A DNA stretch of 64,000 nt from Candidatus Saccharimonadota bacterium (lineage in GTDB: Bacteria > Patescibacteriota > Saccharimonadia > Saccharimonadales > UBA10212). The notes beneath the pieces are model-generated. The model saw only the letters and a list, made by a program, of their open reading frames with translations, made no database searches and was not told the DNA's origin. Both the position numbers and the translations under genes were made by a program. Below, piece after piece: positions 1 through 20,463 of the stretch (position 1 is the first letter of the stretch; each line of letters starts with the position of its first letter). Location of the stretch: positions 126,846-190,845 of the forward strand of contig JACOWW010000002.1 in NCBI GenBank assembly GCA_016176605.1. Direction: 5' to 3'.

Positions 1-1128
1 CCTCTCTTACCTCTCGCCCGCGCCCTTAAAGACAAAAATCCCAGCTGCAAAGTCGTATACATTGGCTTAAAAGGGGATAAGATGGAAGCCGGCGTTCGCT
101 ACGATATTTTCGATAAGGCTGTTTACGTTTCTTCGGGCAAATTCCGCCGTTACCACGGCGAGAGCTTAGTGTCACACCTTATCGACGTTAAGACACTATT
201 GCAAAACTTTAGGGACTTTTTTAGAGTCGTGTCGGGCACAATTTCCGCTTGGAAGTTACTGCGAAAATACAAACCTAGCGTTGTCTTTAGCAAAGGCGGC
301 TACGGGGTAGTGCCGGTTGGCCTCGCGGCGCGCCTACTTGGTATCCCGATTGTTACGCATGATTCAGACGCCGCTGCTGGCTTGGCTAATCGGATTATTG
401 GTCGCTGGGCGAAACTTCACGCCACTGGTATGCCCTCGCGCTATTACCCATACGCCAAAGCCAGCACTCACTACGTCGGCATACCAGTAGATGAGAGAGT
501 GAAACCGGTAAATGAGGCGCTCAAGCGTTCGCTAAGAAACCAAATTGACTTATCGGCTGATAGCTTAGTTCTCCTGGTGGCCGGCGGCGGCTTAGGCTCA
601 CAAAAATTAAATGAATTAGTGATCCGAGTAGCGCCCCAGCTTCTAAAAAAGCACCCCAAATTGCACATTGTCCACTTCAGTGGTTCCGGGCATCAGGATT
701 CGGTTGCTGAACATTACAGACGGGAACTGGGGGCGCAAATGCCCGATAAAGTTAGGGTTATCGGTTTTTCCAGTGACTTTTATGCTTACACCGGCGCGGC
801 TGATGTGGTTTTAGCCAGGGCAGGGGCGACCACCCTAGCTGAGTTAGCCATCCAGCGCAAAGCGGCCGTCATTATTCCCAGCCCCTTTTTAACCGGCGGC
901 CACCAATTGCGAAATGCTGAGCAATTAACAACATTAGGTGCAGCCAAAGTTCTGCCTAACGACGTAAGTCCACAAAAGTTATTCAAGGTTTTAGACGAGC
1001 TACTAGAAAATAAACAGATGAGGGCCGGACTAGCGCACAAAATTGGTTCGCTAGCCCGTCCTGATGCGGCTGACAAGTTAGCCGACATTTTATTGCAAAT
1101 AAGCCTGCGCAATGCGGTTGCTCAGTAG
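1..1128 (+). CDS. murG: MurG, UDP-GlcNAc:lipid I GlcNAc transferase, 5' end cut by window
   Basis: Membrane-associated glycosyltransferase that adds GlcNAc to lipid I to make lipid II for peptidoglycan. The frame is open from base 1, and codons before the first Met at 82 read as normal MurG sequence, so the gene begins outside the window. The middle has the glycine-rich GGGLGSQKL turn of the C-terminal Rossmann domain. The UDP-GlcNAc site follows as RAGATTLAELA, then a HQLRNAEQL helix, both typical of the family. The last 17 bp overlap ftsQ, the usual order in a dcw cluster. Function is firm; only the start is missing. Confidence 0.95.
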   Translation, partial: PLLPLARALKDKNPSCKVVYIGLKGDKMEAGVRYDIFDKAVYVSSGKFRRYHGESLVSHLIDVKTLLQNFRDFFRVVSGTISAWKLLRKYKPSVVFSKGGYGVVPVGLAARLLGIPIVTHDSDAAAGLANRIIGRWAKLHATGMPSRYYPYAKASTHYVGIPVDERVKPVNEALKRSLRNQIDLSADSLVLLVAGGGLGSQKLNELVIRVAPQLLKKHPKLHIVHFSGSGHQDSVAEHYRRELGAQMPDKVRVIGFSSDFYAYTGAADVVLARAGATTLAELAIQRKAAVIIPSPFLTGGHQLRNAEQLTTLGAAKVLPNDVSPQKLFKVLDELLENKQMRAGLAHKIGSLARPDAADKLADILLQISLRNAVAQ

Positions 1129-1990
1129 AAAAAATCGGCTGAATCGGCGTAAGTTTTCTGCCCAAGGTGGTCAAAAGCCGGCGCCGCGTTACTACTTTAG
1201 ATCATCTGGGCCAGCCGCTGCCAGCCCGTTTCAGAGACGACCAGCTGCCACTAAACCACGAAGCGGCATTCTTAAACGGATCAAAAATGCAGTTGTGGCG
1301 ATAGTTTTGGTTGCCGGCCTCGTATACAGTCTGATTATCAAACCTCGTCCTGAAGTGTTGGTGGCTGATACCAGCTATCATCCAGCCAGCGTCTATCAAT
1401 CGGCGGCCCAAGCGACGTTAATGCCACTGCGTAATCGCAATAAATTGACTTTGGATAAAAACGCCATCAGTTCCGCCATGAAGCGGCAATTTCCAGAAAT
1501 TTCCTTTGTCGAGTTGAAACTGCCGCTGCTGCGTCAAATACCGACTTTTAAAATTGACATTGCCGCGCCAACCTTCAATTTAAGCAGTGCCAATAATCTA
1601 TATATCGTCGGCGCTAATGGCGTCGTAGTAGCCGCCAGCGGCCAATTGCCAAATTTATCGAAGTTACCAACGGTCATTGACCAGTCGGGTTTTGAGGCCA
1701 GCCCTGGTAAGCAAGTGCTAAGCACCGAAGCGATCGCCTTTATCAACACCATACTTGTCCAGTGCCAGCGGGCCGGTGTTAATGTTCAATCGCTGACTTT
1801 ACCGGCGGCGCCCCAAGCCCTCGAACTGAGGGCCAGCGGCAGCCCCTATTTTGTTAAATTCGACCTTGGCGGTGACGCCACGCTCCAGGCAGGGCAGTAC
1901 CTAGCCGCCAAGCACCAGTTTGACAGCGAAAATACTCAGCCCAGCCAATATCTAGACGTCCGTGTGGCTGGAAAGATTTATTACAAGTAG
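1112..1990 (+). CDS. ftsQ: FtsQ/DivIB-like cell division protein
   Basis: Bitopic membrane protein expected to link the early and late divisome. The 292-residue product has a basic cytoplasmic tail (about 1-58), one membrane span (about 60-76) and an extracytoplasmic part. That part ends in YLDVRVAGKIYYK, the strand pattern found at the end of FtsQ beta domains. A POTRA domain is expected just after the span (about 80-150), but it is divergent. The gene overlaps murG by 17 bp, which fits dcw order and translational coupling. Assignment rests on topology, position and the C-terminal motif rather than strong identity. Confidence 0.8.
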   Translation: MRLLSRKNRLNRRKFSAQGGQKPAPRYYFRSSGPAAASPFQRRPAATKPRSGILKRIKNAVVAIVLVAGLVYSLIIKPRPEVLVADTSYHPASVYQSAAQATLMPLRNRNKLTLDKNAISSAMKRQFPEISFVELKLPLLRQIPTFKIDIAAPTFNLSSANNLYIVGANGVVVAASGQLPNLSKLPTVIDQSGFEASPGKQVLSTEAIAFINTILVQCQRAGVNVQSLTLPAAPQALELRASGSPYFVKFDLGGDATLQAGQYLAAKHQFDSENTQPSQYLDVRVAGKIYYK

Positions 1991-2252
1991 ATCACATACC
2001 CTTCTTTAGTTCGTATTTTGTTCATATATAATCTAATTAAAACTACTAAGAAAAAACATACAGGGCAGTGTAATTTAGCAAATGTCAAATTTTTTGTTTA
2101 GAGCCGAAAAAGCAGGGGAAAATATACAAAAATATGAAAGACCCAAAAGTCAAGCCATTCGACAAGCTCAGGCTTGGGTGTGGATAACTTTTCACATTTC
2201 ACGACATAGTTAAAAGTCAGTGAGGCATTAACAATATAAACTTTTTTAATAT
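1991..2252. other. Gene-free stretch with a -10 box and a small hairpin
   Basis: AT-rich stretch without a credible ORF. It has a TATAAT at 2027-2032 on the plus strand with a poor -35. It also has a hairpin with arms CAAGCC (2151-2156) and GGCTTG (2171-2176). A TATAAA at 2235-2240 lies directly upstream of the RNA candidate that follows. Confidence 0.4.
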
Positions 2253-2433
2253 GCGGGCTGCTATTGCAGAGCACTGAACAACAGCTAAATATGATAAATT
2301 GTTAAAAGTACCCTGCCTGAAAGGGGTATTGGTGAACATCCTAGTTCCCAATATGGCGCGTCGTGAAATCTATCTTGTGCGACGTGTGGTCTAAGTCTCA
2401 AAAACTATATTCCCTCCGCTTGTCGGCGCCTGC
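2253..2433 (+). ncRNA. Candidate structured RNA of about 180 nt (6S-like in size)
   Basis: This stretch has no reading frame but contains ordered stems. The ends pair (GCGGGC at 2253-2258 with GCCTGC at 2428-2433, one G-U). Inside are GTACCC with GGGTAT, TATTGG with CCAATA, and GCGTCG with CGACGT. A -10-like TATAAA lies at 2235-2240, and a T-rich run follows the closing stem at 2434-2447. Length and a closed rod with internal loops recall 6S RNA, and the stretch TTGGTGAACATCC resembles part of it, but I see no decisive signature. SRP RNA, RNase P RNA and tmRNA motifs were looked for and not seen. Confidence 0.35.
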
Positions 2434-2564
2434 AATTTTTGTTTTTCGATTTTTTAAATAATTAACTATTTTTATTATTGCTACCCGCCTGCCGTAGTGG
2501 TATGCCAATCCCTCTACACCATACCAACGAACCTTGTTCGTAAAATGTTCGATAAGTTTTAATA

Positions 2565-2570
2565 TATAAT
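2565..2570 (+). promoter_or_regulatory. -10 box for the gene at 2580
   Basis: Perfect TATAAT nine bases before the ATG at 2580. There is no Shine-Dalgarno between them, so the mRNA probably starts at or very near the start codon. No convincing -35 is visible. Confidence 0.6.
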
Positions 2571-2579
2571 TATTAACAG

Positions 2580-3251
2580 ATGATTACTGGTGTACGCATT
2601 AGTAAGGCTGGTGCGCAAGTTCCCTGGACCAAGGCTGAAGTGCTAGCGGGCCTAGAATATTTCTTCAAGCTATACTCTCGTTACCCTACGGCACGAGAAA
2701 TAGACGCATTCGAATATCTGCCGTCATCAAGGTCGATACAAAGACAATTTGGAGGCCTTGTAGTACTCAGAAGCGAACTCATACCAAATAGCCATAACAA
2801 TTTTACTAAAGGTTCTTATCGTTCGGCTCGTGCTAAAGAGTCATGGGACAGGGCTGCAAAATATGAGGAAGAGTTCTTTGGTTTTCTGTGTAAGCATTTT
2901 GAACCTGTAGCTGTCCACGAGCATAAAGTAATGAGGCCCGGAAACGTTAATAGCGACTATTATATTTACTTAAATGAGAATAGCGGGGTAGTCATTGACC
3001 TTTTCTATGCCAAAGACCTATTTTCCCTATCAAATGTTATAAATATAAAATTAAAAAGATATATGAATCTGCCAATTGAAACATATTTTATTCTGGTGGG
3101 CAATAGGCATATAACCCAAGAAAACATAAACAGCATGCTTTCGAACAGAAAAGTTGCCCTGCCCTCGCATATATCCATAAACACAGAAGAAAATTTTAAG
3201 AACTCAACTATACTCGACATCAAAAGCAGATCAATTTATTCTCGTAGTTAG
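2580..3251 (+). CDS. Hypothetical protein, possible nuclease with an N-terminal DNA-binding repeat
   Basis: 223 residues, not confidently recognised. Residues about 15-65 look like one unit of the helical repeat found beside homing endonucleases: a YPTAREID segment, then a RSIQRQFGGLVVLR segment. The second half has a strand VVIDLFYAK, then a helix with IKLKRY, then YFILVGN. This could be a PD-(D/E)XK-like core, but the catalytic set is not clean. ATG at 2580 fits the TATAAT just upstream. The last 4 bases overlap the convergent stop of the VirD4-like gene. Base composition is more AT-rich than neighbours, which suggests recent acquisition. Confidence 0.5.
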   Translation: MITGVRISKAGAQVPWTKAEVLAGLEYFFKLYSRYPTAREIDAFEYLPSSRSIQRQFGGLVVLRSELIPNSHNNFTKGSYRSARAKESWDRAAKYEEEFFGFLCKHFEPVAVHEHKVMRPGNVNSDYYIYLNENSGVVIDLFYAKDLFSLSNVINIKLKRYMNLPIETYFILVGNRHITQENINSMLSNRKVALPSHISINTEENFKNSTILDIKSRSIYSRS

Positions 3252-5815
3252 CGAAGTTTGATGATGTGTTCGTTGCTGGCCGGATTGTCAGTGGCCGGCT
3301 TTGGCGCGCTTGTAGGCTGTCCACTCGAGCCGCCGCCTCTGCGGCGCCTGGAGCGCTTGCGTTTAACCGGCGGCTGGTCTTGCACTCGACTTTGTATCTT
3401 TTGAGGGTGCGTGACGCCGGTAGCCAGCTTTATAAGCTGTTCGTTGGGTGATACTTTAGGTTTATTGGCCGCCGGTTCGGTCTTAGCCGCAGCAGCCAAG
3501 CCCGATGCTTCGCGGATAACCTTCTCAACCTCCTGCTTATCGCGGCCGTAGCGTTCACGTGTCCTAGCGATGATTTGGGCCGAGTTATCTTGCGGCGGAC
3601 TGGGCAAGTTAAGTGTCTTAGCCGAAAAGGCCGGCGCTTTCTCGTCATCGATCATCATGCTGATTACAAAAAAGCGCGAATGCTGCTGGATTAAATTGGC
3701 CGCCTCGAACTCGGGTTCAAAATATTTTTGCAAAAACGGCGCGTCATCGGGGCTGACCCTAAAGCTCATGACCGTACCGACGTTACCAAAGACGGCGCCG
3801 CGAACCTCCTCACTCATTTGCGATATGTATTGGTTGGCAACAGTCAAATTAAGCGCGTATTTGCGGGCCTCAGACAATATTGTGGCGAATGAATCGGTGG
3901 CAAAGTTCTGGAACTCGTCAACGTACAGATAAAATGACCGGCGCCTGTCCTCGGGTATTTCAGCGCGCCCCATGGACGCCAGCTGAATCTTAGTGACTAC
4001 CAGCGCGCCCAAAATACCGGCATTATCCTCGCCCATTAAGCCGCGGCTTAAGTTGACGACCAAGATTTTACCCTCGTCCATGATTTTACGGATATCGAAC
4101 GTGCTTTTAGGCTGGCCAACAATGTTTCTAATCATCGGATTGGCCGTAAAGGCCCCTACTTTATTAAGCACCGGCGCCACGGCCTCGGTGGCAAATTTAT
4201 CATTCCAGCTGGCGAATTCCACTGTCCAGAAGTTTCTGACCACCGGGTCGTCAATATATTTAATAACGTCAGCTCGAAAATGTCGGTCAGTCAGCATACG
4301 CGTGATGTCGAGCATGGTTGAGTTGGGAAAATCAAGCAGCGCCAGCAGCGTGTAGCGCAGTATATATTCCAATCTCGGGCCCCAACTTTCGGCAAACAGG
4401 CGTTTGAGTACGCCGACTACTTCCGAACTAATGTGGCCTTTGAGCGATGGGTCGGAAATTTCTAACGGATTAAAGCCGATAGGGTGCTCGGTGTCGGCTG
4501 GGTTGAAGTAGACAACATCATCGATTCGGTTTTTGGGTATAAAACTCAAAACGTGCTGGGCGTAATCGCCGTGCGGGTCAATAACGGCGAAGCCCTGGTC
4601 GTAATAAATGTCGGAGATTGTTAGCAGCTCTAGGGCACCGGACTTACCTGTGCCGGTTTGGCCCAAAATGTACATGTGGCGGCTGCGGTCGGCGCGGCGG
4701 ATACCAAAGACAGTGTTATCACCGCGGAAATTAGTTACACCAAACAGGCTGATTTCTTCTTCATGTCCCGGTTCGGCTATGGGGATATTAGCCGGCGGCT
4801 CGGCCGTTTTGGTGGTTGCCCAGACGATGCTGGGTGTTTCTACCGTAGTGTGCGGCAGGTGGAACAGGCTGGCTAATTCTTCTATGTTCAAAATAAAGCC
4901 GTGGTCAATAAAAAACCTGGCCTGGTATTCCAGCAGCTTATCGCGGTTAAAGCTCTCGGCTTTAGCTCTGAAGCCGTTAAGGTTAGTGGTATTGAACTGC
5001 TTAAAAGCACCGACCAGCGCTTGCATGCGCAGCCGGGCAGTCCGCTGGTCGTTGCCAGCATAAAGCAAGCGGATTTTGACCTGGTAGCCCAGTTTTTGGG
5101 TTTTGGTTTCGATGGCTGTAATACGGGCCTTGTCCCGTTCTGATAATTCCGGCTCGCTGCCGGCCTCCCTACCAGTGGCCGCCGGCGGGCGTGCCAGCGC
5201 CGCGAAAGCCTGCCCGGCGTAGCTTAAAGTTGCTGTCCCGCTACCGGACAAGATTCCCCTACCCCCTCGGATGCGAGCAATCGTTTTGGCGCCGCGCTTA
5301 TGCCAATCATCGGCGATTGGGCGGGCCATGATCTGGATCCACATCTCTTCGCTTTCCTTATCCAGTTTGGCCAGTGTGGCGGTAATGGCCGCCAGGGGGT
5401 CAACTTCAAAGCTCGGAAATGTCTTAATTGGCATTGTTTCGTTGTCGATTAGGGTCAGTTCGGTTGTGTGGATGACTGCCTGCTCAAAATCACGTTCGGC
5501 ATAGTCCGTTTCCGGCTCGGTAATCTGGACTGTCGGGTACTGGGCGTAAATTTGCCCCTCTACGAAGGCTTGCAAATGTTTTGGTGTCCAGATATAAAAA
5601 CGAATCCGCTGGCCTTTGGCGGCAATTTCCAGGCTGATATGCTCTTGCAGTGTGCCCGACAGGCGCAGTTCGCGCTTGGAGCGCAAGATACCGTGCAAGG
5701 CCGCCAGCATCTGCTCGGCAGCCAGCTCTTTCTTGTCGTTCTCGCGCGGGATCTCCAGCATTAACAAACAATGCTCGTGATGCATCCGCACTTTTTTACT
5801 TCGGCGTAATATCAT
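3248..5815 (-). CDS. VirD4/TraD-like DNA-pumping ATPase (type IV secretion family)
   Basis: Large soluble ATPase. After an N-terminal region of about 380 residues comes a Walker A (GQTGTGKS, near residue 385). A VIDPHGDYAQHVLSF segment follows, then a Walker B (SFYLYVDEFQNF, near 630) and ANQYISQM, the order seen in VirD4/TraD/DUF87 ATPases. The tail is Lys/Arg-rich (KRKRSRRRRGGG). Such proteins move DNA or proteins through membranes; no membrane span and no other secretion gene is nearby, so the partner machinery is unknown. An upstream TTG at 5830 is in frame, but a TATAAT at 5833-5838 points to ATG 5815 as the start of a near-leaderless mRNA. Confidence 0.8.
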   Translation of the reverse strand: MILRRSKKVRMHHEHCLLMLEIPRENDKKELAAEQMLAALHGILRSKRELRLSGTLQEHISLEIAAKGQRIRFYIWTPKHLQAFVEGQIYAQYPTVQITEPETDYAERDFEQAVIHTTELTLIDNETMPIKTFPSFEVDPLAAITATLAKLDKESEEMWIQIMARPIADDWHKRGAKTIARIRGGRGILSGSGTATLSYAGQAFAALARPPAATGREAGSEPELSERDKARITAIETKTQKLGYQVKIRLLYAGNDQRTARLRMQALVGAFKQFNTTNLNGFRAKAESFNRDKLLEYQARFFIDHGFILNIEELASLFHLPHTTVETPSIVWATTKTAEPPANIPIAEPGHEEEISLFGVTNFRGDNTVFGIRRADRSRHMYILGQTGTGKSGALELLTISDIYYDQGFAVIDPHGDYAQHVLSFIPKNRIDDVVYFNPADTEHPIGFNPLEISDPSLKGHISSEVVGVLKRLFAESWGPRLEYILRYTLLALLDFPNSTMLDITRMLTDRHFRADVIKYIDDPVVRNFWTVEFASWNDKFATEAVAPVLNKVGAFTANPMIRNIVGQPKSTFDIRKIMDEGKILVVNLSRGLMGEDNAGILGALVVTKIQLASMGRAEIPEDRRRSFYLYVDEFQNFATDSFATILSEARKYALNLTVANQYISQMSEEVRGAVFGNVGTVMSFRVSPDDAPFLQKYFEPEFEAANLIQQHSRFFVISMMIDDEKAPAFSAKTLNLPSPPQDNSAQIIARTRERYGRDKQEVEKVIREASGLAAAAKTEPAANKPKVSPNEQLIKLATGVTHPQKIQSRVQDQPPVKRKRSRRRRGGGSSGQPTSAPKPATDNPASNEHIIKLR

Positions 5816-18471: not shown

Positions 18472-18738
18472 CACATTATCCTCCTGATCGCTTATTGTTT
18501 ACTGTTTCTTGCTTCTTGTTTTTTGATTTGAGTTATAAAAAGAAAACCGATTGCCGCTTGAAACGACTCAGCAGACGGATTTACGCCCAGCTACCAGCTA
18601 AGAACAATGACCGTCTATCATAATTCCGTTACTGGGAGCAAATAGATTCGAGGACTAAGTAGGGACTGCCTGTTTGGCTGTGTACTTTCCTGATTTTAGC
18701 TAACAGCTAACCGCTATCAGCTAATGGCTATTAAAGTC

Positions 18739-18779: not shown

Positions 18780-18852
18780 TGGCTAAACTAATTCTATATT
18801 ATTGCGCTTCCGCTTTGCAACGGAAATTAATATAATTTTTTACGATTTGTGG

Positions 18853-18858
18853 TAGTAT
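18853..18858 (+). promoter_or_regulatory. Candidate -10 of the ilvA leader
   Basis: TAGTAT ends 7 nt before the leader ATG at 18866, the spacing seen for other leaderless genes here. TATAAT at 18831-18836 is an alternative that would give a short untranslated leader. Confidence 0.45.
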
Positions 18859-18865
18859 CAAGTTT

Positions 18866-18931
18866 ATGGCTAAGGGAATAATTTCGATTATCGGAATTAT
18901 TATTACCTCCTTCGGAGGTGCCTTAGCGTAA
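18866..18931 (+). CDS. Isoleucine-rich leader peptide of ilvA (21 aa)
   Basis: ATG to TAA, 21 codons. Seven are Ile (codons 5, 6, 8, 9, 11, 12 and 13, with ATA, ATT and ATC) and one Thr follows. The Ile run ends exactly where the first hairpin arm begins (ACC TCC, codons 14-15). Enzymes of branched-chain amino acid synthesis are classically controlled by such peptides. Ile is the end product of the pathway that the downstream ilvA begins. Too short for routine gene calling. Confidence 0.8.
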   Translation: MAKGIISIIGIIITSFGGALA

Positions 18932-18977
18932 TCCATTAAAAAGGATAGAAGGTGACCTCCCGTACGGGAGGTTTTTT
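18905..18977 (+). promoter_or_regulatory. Transcription attenuator of ilvA
   Basis: Arm 1 ACCTCC (18905-18910) pairs with arm 2 GGAGGT (18914-18919). Arm 3 ACCTCCC (18955-18961) pairs with arm 4 GGGAGGT (18966-18972), followed by TTTTT (18973-18977) to form the terminator. Arm 2 can also pair with arm 3. A ribosome stalled on the Ile codons would cover arm 1 and free arm 2 to trap arm 3, so transcription continues into ilvA when Ile is scarce. Confidence 0.8.
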
Positions 18978-19046
18978 AGTAAAGAAGAATGAGCAATTTT
19001 AAGGCGCGAAAATCGAAATTTCAGCAATAGCTTACCTGGGAGAAAG

Positions 19047-20297
19047 ATGAAAAACCTCGTCGGCCTACAGACAATTGATGAAGCCGCCCAAAGGCTAAAT
19101 AATGTGGCAATGAATACGCCGCTGCAATTTTCGCATCGCTTGTCAAAGCTTCATCGCGCCAAAGTCTATCTTAAGCGCGAAGACCTGCAGGACGTGCGTT
19201 CTTATAAAATCCGTGGCGCTTATAACTTAATTAAGTCGCTGCCGGCCAAAGAACAAAAAAAGGGGGTTGTTTGCGCCAGCGCCGGTAACCATGCCCAAGG
19301 TGTAGCCTACAGCTGTAACCGGCTAAAAATTAAAGGTACAATTTTTATGCCCGTTCTTACGCCGCTGCAAAAAATCAGCCGTGTGCGGCACTTTGGCAGC
19401 GGCTGGGTAGATGTTAAATTGGTTGGAACTACGTTTGATGAGAGCAATTCTGCGGCCCAGGAATTCTCAAAAAAACACAGCACCGTTTTTGTCCATCCGT
19501 TTGACGACCCGATAGTAATTTCCGGCCAGGGCACGGTTGGCAAAGAAATTTGGGAGAAGCTTGGCAAAAGCATCGATTATCTATTCTGCCCGGTTGGCGG
19601 CGGCGGCCTAATTTCAGGCGCCGGCACTTACCTTAAAGGTAAGAATAAGAAAGTTAAAGTCGTGGCTGTGGAAGCCAAAGGTGCCGCCGGCATGCACAAG
19701 TCGTTAAAGTTCGGTAGCATTGTAACTTTGGAAGAAATTGACCCGTTTGTGGACGGCGTGGCCGTAAAAACTGTCGGCAGCCATACCTTTGCCATAGCTT
19801 CGAAATTGATCGATAAGACAGTCGTTCTGGACGAAGGCCAAATTTGCTCGACGATGATTGATCTTTACCAAAACGAAGGGATTGTCAGCGAGCCGGCCGG
19901 CGCATTATCAATCTCGGCTCTAGACGAACTGGGTACGCATCTGAAAAATAAGGTGGTCGTTTGTATCTTAAGCGGCGGCAACAACGACATTTTGCGCTAC
20001 CCTGAAATAATGGAAAAAAGTTTGGTTTATAAGGGGCTTAAGCATTACTTCATCATCGAGTTCGCTCAAAGGCCCGGACAACTGAAAAAGCTGGTAGATA
20101 AAGTTTTAGGGCCGAGCGACGACATAGTCAGATTTGAATATATTAAGAAAAACTCCAAAGAAACCGGCCCGGCCTTGGTTGGTATAGAGCTGGTTGACAA
20201 AAAAGACCTGCGTCCGTTGATGAAAAAACTTGATACCGAAGGCATAAACTACACCGCCCTAGAACCAAAGGATCTTCTCTACAAATACCTGATATAA
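19047..20297 (+). CDS. ilvA: Threonine dehydratase (biosynthetic, ACT-containing)
   Basis: PLP enzyme converting Thr to 2-oxobutyrate, the first step to Ile. PLP Lys54 in RSYKIRGAYN; phosphate cradle ASAGNHAQG; GGGGLISG glycine loop. The last about 80 residues form one ACT-like regulatory domain (KHYFIIEFAQRPGQL), so feedback by Ile is likely. At 416 residues it is the shorter, single-ACT type. GGGAGA lies 5 nt before ATG 19047. The Ile-leader attenuator upstream supports a biosynthetic rather than a degradative role. No other ilv gene is in the window. Confidence 0.93.
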   Translation: MKNLVGLQTIDEAAQRLNNVAMNTPLQFSHRLSKLHRAKVYLKREDLQDVRSYKIRGAYNLIKSLPAKEQKKGVVCASAGNHAQGVAYSCNRLKIKGTIFMPVLTPLQKISRVRHFGSGWVDVKLVGTTFDESNSAAQEFSKKHSTVFVHPFDDPIVISGQGTVGKEIWEKLGKSIDYLFCPVGGGGLISGAGTYLKGKNKKVKVVAVEAKGAAGMHKSLKFGSIVTLEEIDPFVDGVAVKTVGSHTFAIASKLIDKTVVLDEGQICSTMIDLYQNEGIVSEPAGALSISALDELGTHLKNKVVVCILSGGNNDILRYPEIMEKSLVYKGLKHYFIIEFAQRPGQLKKLVDKVLGPSDDIVRFEYIKKNSKETGPALVGIELVDKKDLRPLMKKLDTEGINYTALEPKDLLYKYLI

Positions 20298-20388: not shown

Positions 20389-20463
20389 GGTCCCATCGTC
20401 TAGTGGTTAGGACACCGGGTTCTCATCCCGGCAACAGGGGTTCGACTCCCCTTGGGATCACCA
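20389..20463 (+). tRNA. tRNA-Glu (CTC)
   Basis: Full cloverleaf: acceptor GGTCCCA/TGGGATC, D arm GTC...GAC, anticodon stem CCGGG/CCCGG with loop TTCTCAT (anticodon CTC, reads GAG), T arm AGGGG-TTCGACT-CCCCT, encoded CCA. It lies inside the relic described above. Confidence 0.93.

Follow-up and report, generated by a model that had tools for sequence, protein, structure and literature searches.

The closest described counterparts of the element reported here are the leader attenuators of Proteobacteria (trpL, ilvL, thrL and hisL; Rfam families Trp_leader, Thr_leader, Leu_leader, His_leader and Phe_leader), with which it shares a short open reading frame (ORF) rich in the cognate codon, mutually exclusive pairings, a terminator and a cognate gene. 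It differs from them in having no Rfam match, in being very short and apparently leaderless, and in standing in front of a single ilvA without the rest of the pathway. In the rnTrpL/peTrpL system of Sinorhizobium meliloti, the 5' end of the leader mRNA is the ATG of a 14-codon ORF, which makes it leaderless (PMC7298713). Our element resembles this system in its transcription attenuation and in its leader ORF, which is leaderless there and predicted to be so here, whereas the S. meliloti leader concerns Trp instead of Ile, belongs to an alphaproteobacterium and controls trpE(G). The actinobacterial leaders of ilvB and ilvBNC (PMC1262725, PMC11857589, PMC10272879) also carry branched-chain codons in a short ORF that overlaps or precedes a terminator, but they are located upstream of acetolactate synthase operons; one of these studies, from 2005, called the exact mode of ilvB regulation unclear. 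When a broad screen for attenuators appeared in 2010, those who ran it had known of no leader-peptide systems beyond Proteobacteria and Actinobacteria before their own Firmicutes cases (PMC2965389). We found no published attenuation or leader peptides in CPR, Patescibacteria or Saccharibacteria in a literature search that excluded preprints and most subscription papers, in line with an earlier note on this DNA, whose author knew of no report from a CPR genome. Mechanisms of this kind are known; new are the setting and the probably leaderless design.

The window, i.e., the whole stretch of 64,000 nucleotides that was analysed, comprises bases 126846-190845 of a 401-kb contig from a genome of 728 kb that is 89% complete. 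It derives from Candidatus Saccharibacteria, a placement based on the kinship to other genomes in our set and on the 16S gene, which contains an exact match to what we take to be the target of the Saccharibacteria probe TM7-305; the earlier note had rightly assigned the DNA to the CPR. The 16S gene (L153, contig C3) is also interrupted by a few hundred inserted bases, in which a 100-aa ORF (757-1059, minus strand) resembles, by eye, a GIY-YIG endonuclease. The ilvA gene of the window (19047-20297, plus strand) encodes a threonine ammonia-lyase of 416 aa with a C-terminal regulatory domain, as identified with NCBIfam (NF006390 at 607 bits and TIGR02079 at 580 bits, both above cut-off) and Pfam (PF00291 and PF00585). 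A tRNA-Glu (CTC) is located on the same strand at 20389-20463, 92 bases 3' of the ilvA stop codon.

Upstream of ilvA, on the plus strand, lies a leader peptide ORF (MAKGIISIIGIIITSFGGALA, 18866-18931) that starts with ATG, comprises 21 codons and ends with TAA at 18929-18931; an Ile-rich leader is likewise placed in relatives. Its regulatory stretch ATA ATT TCG ATT ATC GGA ATT ATT ATT (18878-18904) holds seven Ile codons in nine positions (18878-18883, 18887-18892 and 18896-18904) and ends right at arm 1 of the RNA structure, 9 nt 5' of arm 2, exactly as the earlier note had placed it. Given the size of a ribosome footprint, a ribosome stalled in this stretch would be positioned to mask arm 1 but not arm 2. 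Arm 1 (ACCTCC, 18905-18910) pairs with the GGAGGT core (18914-18919) of arm 2 (GGAGGTGCCTT, 18914-18924) in a hairpin spanning 18905-18919 (-7.4 kcal/mol). Arm 2 also forms the 5' half of an antiterminator, in which it pairs with arm 3 (AAGGT plus ACCTCC, 18949-18960, assigned by folding energy). Arm 3 in turn pairs, through ACCTCCC at 18955-18961, with arm 4 (GGGAGGT, 18966-18972) in an intrinsic terminator at 18954-18977 (GACCTCCC-GTAC-GGGAGGTT followed by a T tract) that has an 8-bp stem, a GTAC loop and U6, corresponding to six T at 18972-18977 (-13.3 to -13.8 kcal/mol). While the 1:2 and 3:4 pairings proposed earlier were located correctly, with a T tract of six rather than five, the proposed 2:3 pairing is present but was understated. 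The antiterminator joins 18914-18924 with 18949-18953 and 18955-18960 over 11 bp, encloses an inner hairpin (18931-18946, with 18931-18934 pairing with 18943-18946) and reaches -17.6 kcal/mol, which is stronger than both the terminator and the 1:2 hairpin. The three pairings exclude each other. As a whole, 18866-18985 folds at -44.2 kcal/mol, compared with -27.3 ± 3.7 kcal/mol for dinucleotide shuffles (z = -4.6; 0/200). The ACCTCC/GGAGGT arms look like an anti-SD/SD pair, but such a relationship as their cause was rejected, since other loci have CCCGC/GCGGG and similar arms.

In order to place this locus among its relatives, ilvA genes with their upstream DNA were taken from the window's order, a Levybacteria order, a phylum sample and a named-genome scan, giving 80 ilvA-type loci, nearly all from CPR. 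A detector for short ORFs with at least three Ile per ten codons, accompanied within 60 nt by a terminator stem of 6 bp or more, was positive at 26 of the 80 loci, compared with 0.6 expected from dinucleotide shuffles. With at least four Ile there were 20 positives (0.125 expected) and with at least five there were 14 (0.025 expected). Among 3,200 dinucleotide-shuffled ilvA-upstream sequences, at least five Ile per ten codons together with a terminator occurred once; the window has seven. When any amino acid was allowed to supply at least four codons per ten, Ile did so at 20 of the 80 loci, Leu at four and any other at no more than one. Examples are MSTNQQIIISIIIPPSTRC, MKTSQMIITSIIIIPRGDAL and MTQQGIISIIIMPPQARR from Saccharibacteria, MKKFSSIQIISIISIMES and MNMKFAGIIGIIITR from Levybacteria, and MTRRTIIISIIIPRSARG from another CPR family. 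The conservation of Ile codons upstream of ilvA, proposed earlier as a check, is thus borne out by the 26 positive loci, and the leaders have the Ile codons in common but little else. For closer comparison we curated a set of 26 leaders, one per genome (15 from the window's order, eight from the Levybacteria order and three others including L072), which overlaps with the 26 detector positives but differs from them; L004, a detector positive that looks weak, was for example omitted. The window element is one of many of its kind in CPR.

Two further features of these loci deserve mention. In many Saccharibacteria, the ilvA-like gene with an Ile leader has ribosomal protein genes, those of L10 and L7/L12, as neighbours (L212, L210 and L213, confirmed with Pfam; also L148, L202, L203 and L211). 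A second leader subtype, with a conserved (G/Q)LCFxxVEA end, few Ile codons and GGCTTC/GAAGCC terminator arms, is found upstream of ilvA-like genes in L203, L208, L211, L134 and L009.

The arms change together between loci. Across the 26 curated leaders, the complementarity of arm 2 to the 5' arm of its own terminator totalled 358, compared with 292 ± 11.6 when the arms were swapped between loci, and none of 10,000 swaps scored as high. The same is seen in a pair of Levybacteria loci, L050 and L065, whose IlvA proteins are 90% identical: both keep the leader, while arms 2, 3 and 4 have changed from GGGTTGT/ACAACCCC/GGGGTT to GGGAGGT/ACCTCCC/GGGAGGT. Covariation of the 2:3 and 3:4 stems, the other support that had been looked for in relatives, is therefore present in the swap test as well as in this pair. 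In L148, L020, L209 and L213, arms 1 and 2 are short by ungapped score.

The position of the promoter also recurs among relatives. In the window, the -10 hexamer TAGTAT (18853-18858, plus strand) noticed earlier ends 7 nt before the leader ATG and is part of an extended -10 element (TGGTAGTAT, 18850-18858), whose spacing to the leader start is shared by most relatives. No convincing -35 box was seen at this promoter, and several leaders among the 26 have TTGACA at a spacing of 16-17 nt. The distance from the end of a -10-like hexamer to the leader start is 6 nt in nine of the 26 and 7 nt in six (15/26 together), corresponding to 7.5 hexamers per position at 6-7 nt as opposed to about 0.9 per position at 11-39 nt. 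Transcription usually starts about 7 nt past the -10 box, which would put the first codon of the leader ORF at, or close to, the RNA 5' end. This recurrence across relatives lends support to the earlier suggestion that the leader mRNA is leaderless, which we consider probable. A TATAAT located 29 nt upstream, the top single hexamer of the scan of the window, was rejected because the spacing across loci favours a box at 6-10 nt. The intergenic DNA upstream of the attenuator contains repeated AGCTA-type words at 18590-18735 (gctaacagctaaccgctatcagctaatggcta), and similar runs are found upstream of ilvA in L049.

We also applied the detector to 309 further genes of the retrieved loci, with downstream genes named by NCBIfam or Pfam. 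Besides several unconvincing positives, it returned convincing CPR leaders upstream of ilvB, leuA, thrS, thrC, cysK and a ridA-ilvA pair. A Levybacteria acetolactate synthase is preceded by MNLRTISIIIGIIVVPDGGSFA, a 2-isopropylmalate synthase (leuA; L158, gene at 2108) by the Leu-rich MKTNQNILLTIDLLLTEI with a terminator, a threonyl-tRNA synthetase (thrS; L187, minus strand, gene 1-598) by the Thr-rich CTTTTISS with a terminator, and a cysteine synthase (L036, gene at 1471) by the Cys-rich CCCKDPPCC with a terminator. Such agreement between codon and gene is to be expected under attenuation. Within the window's own genus, the acetolactate synthase large subunit of genome G002 (L127, 1486-3285; TIGR00118, 645 bits) follows the short leader MLGMRNQLISEVIIINPA, which contains an Ile run, and a terminator. 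Since this genome has neither ketol-acid reductoisomerase (KARI) nor dihydroxy-acid dehydratase (DHAD), the enzyme is a second orphan pathway enzyme of the genus, apparently under Ile attenuation.

L029 encodes (790-2727, minus strand) a threonine synthase-like PLP enzyme fused to the allosteric (dimerisation) domain of LeuA, with an Ile-rich leader upstream, which suggests that Ile or Leu controls threonine synthesis there. The fusion is based on a Pfam match in L029 and on C-terminal matches to the LeuA family in L025; similar proteins occur in L025 and L026. In L048, the product of the gene at 4793-5713 (306 aa) weakly matches a nucleotidyltransferase; this gene lies behind a terminator and an Ile/Leu-rich leader (MQKSKISNLWHNLIYIILIINEN), and a -10 box is found 8 nt upstream of the leader.

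We therefore consider it very likely that the window element controls ilvA through ribosome-mediated transcription attenuation, with charged tRNA-Ile as the signal that is sensed, based on the anatomy of the locus, the conservation in relatives, the covariation of the arms, the promoter spacing and the match between leader and gene. The locus combines a leader ORF with a cognate codon run, a terminator, exclusive 1:2, 2:3 and 3:4 pairings and ilvA downstream, as in classical attenuators, and the reading as an Ile leader-peptide attenuator given in the earlier note is thus supported. Against it count the leaderless-gene case of the closest IlvA relative (L042), which has no such element before ilvA, the absence of a clear -35 box in the window promoter and the short arms 1 and 2 of L148, L020, L209 and L213. 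From the features of the locus we infer where transcription starts, that the ribosome stalls, that termination takes place in vivo and that Ile controls the outcome. Transcription would start at or next to the leader ATG, and a ribosome would load on the leaderless mRNA. Under a shortage of Ile-tRNA, the ribosome would stall in the Ile run and mask arm 1, leaving arm 2 to pair with arm 3, so that no terminator would form and the polymerase would enter ilvA. When Ile is plentiful, the ribosome would reach the stop codon and cover arm 2, and the 3:4 terminator would end transcription near 18977. Without translation, the 1:2 and 3:4 pairings would form and transcription would also end.

The gene under this control appears to be an orphan. 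Family-by-family profile searches of the window's genome (89% complete) did not find IlvB, IlvC, IlvD or IlvE, with no match to PF02776 (acetolactate synthase N-domain), PF01450 (KARI), PF00920 (DHAD) or PF01063 (class IV aminotransferase). The earlier note had described the leader as standing in front of the first enzyme of Ile synthesis; ilvA is indeed downstream, but the implied pathway is apparently missing. Since the rest of the pathway was not found, the 2-oxobutyrate made by IlvA is probably not turned into Ile in the cell. The two same-genus genomes (G001 and G002) also have no KARI, DHAD or class IV aminotransferase, acetolactate synthase being present only in G002. Among the 18 tested CPR genomes outside the Levybacteria with a leader or leader-like element, 14 of which are at least 90% complete, DHAD (IlvD) was found in none and KARI likewise in none (0/18 each), while both were detected in all 14 reference genomes used as controls. 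DHAD is present in six of the nine remaining genomes (eight Levybacteria and that of L072), and because of this an Ile switch fits normal Ile synthesis there. In several Saccharibacteria, IlvA is cut down to its catalytic domain and the Ile leader is kept. Most bacteria of the group with the ilvA switch, including that of the window, seem to be without the rest of the Ile pathway.

A FastTree phylogeny groups the window IlvA with a Daviesbacteria protein as its sister (support 0.99), within a mostly Microgenomates clade and apart from other Saccharibacteria IlvA, and because of this position we suggest that the gene was horizontally acquired from Microgenomates. The sister, L042, is also the closest IlvA relative (71%); it has no leader, so that the leader of the window may or may not have arrived with the gene, and ilvA sits behind a ridA-like gene there. 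This origin, together with the lack of ilvA in both same-genus genomes and the missing downstream pathway, would suit a decayed relic, i.e., a leader that arrived with the acquired gene, neither of which works in its orphan context. We consider this very unlikely, as nothing is disrupted in the ORF, the arms, the terminator or the 416-aa IlvA, and other Saccharibacteria with unrelated ilvA types and no IlvD still have intact Ile leaders.

Slightly less probable again is that the ORF, which is hydrophobic and followed by a terminator on its 3' side, represents a gene for an Ile-rich, membrane-like mini-protein with its own terminator, incidental arm pairing and a separate ilvA promoter downstream. 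The promoter scan lists no plus-strand site in the interval from the terminator to the start of ilvA, and the relatives' leaders retain Ile codons rather than a common peptide, while arm 2 tracks arm 3 and the cognate amino acid follows the downstream gene (Leu for leuA, Thr for thrS, Cys for cysK). In Firmicutes, T-boxes are common regulators of genes for branched-chain amino acids and for aminoacyl-tRNA synthetases, and we likewise considered a T-box, or another riboswitch that binds tRNA or a ligand, in place of a translated leader. Over the window, however, only two tRNAs reach an Rfam gathering score and no known leader or T-box does; the best leader family at the attenuator is Phe_leader with 17.8 bits against a cut-off of 55. 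With about 110 nt from the probable start to the terminator end, over half of it coding, we give a riboswitch next to no chance.

Gene regulation in Patescibacteria/CPR is almost unknown. Our data indicate wide use of classical leader-peptide attenuation in CPR, with probably leaderless leaders and Ile, Leu, Thr and Cys as cognate codons, and its attachment to a threonine deaminase that is apparently without its downstream pathway. In a modelling study (PMC6609349), isoleucine ranked at the top of the metabolites that are missing in oral Saccharibacteria strains and that their hosts are able to produce. With a switch for Ile starvation placed on an orphan enzyme of the Ile pathway, the exchange between epibiont and host becomes directly testable. 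We put forward, as a speculative and rather doubtful idea, that Saccharibacteria hold orphan first-step enzymes (IlvA, and the acetolactate synthase of G002) under Ile attenuation not for Ile synthesis of their own but so as to provide their bacterial host with an intermediate, for instance 2-oxobutyrate, in return for which the host gives back Ile. If true, this would be a pathway across two organisms, turned on by the epibiont's own Ile starvation.
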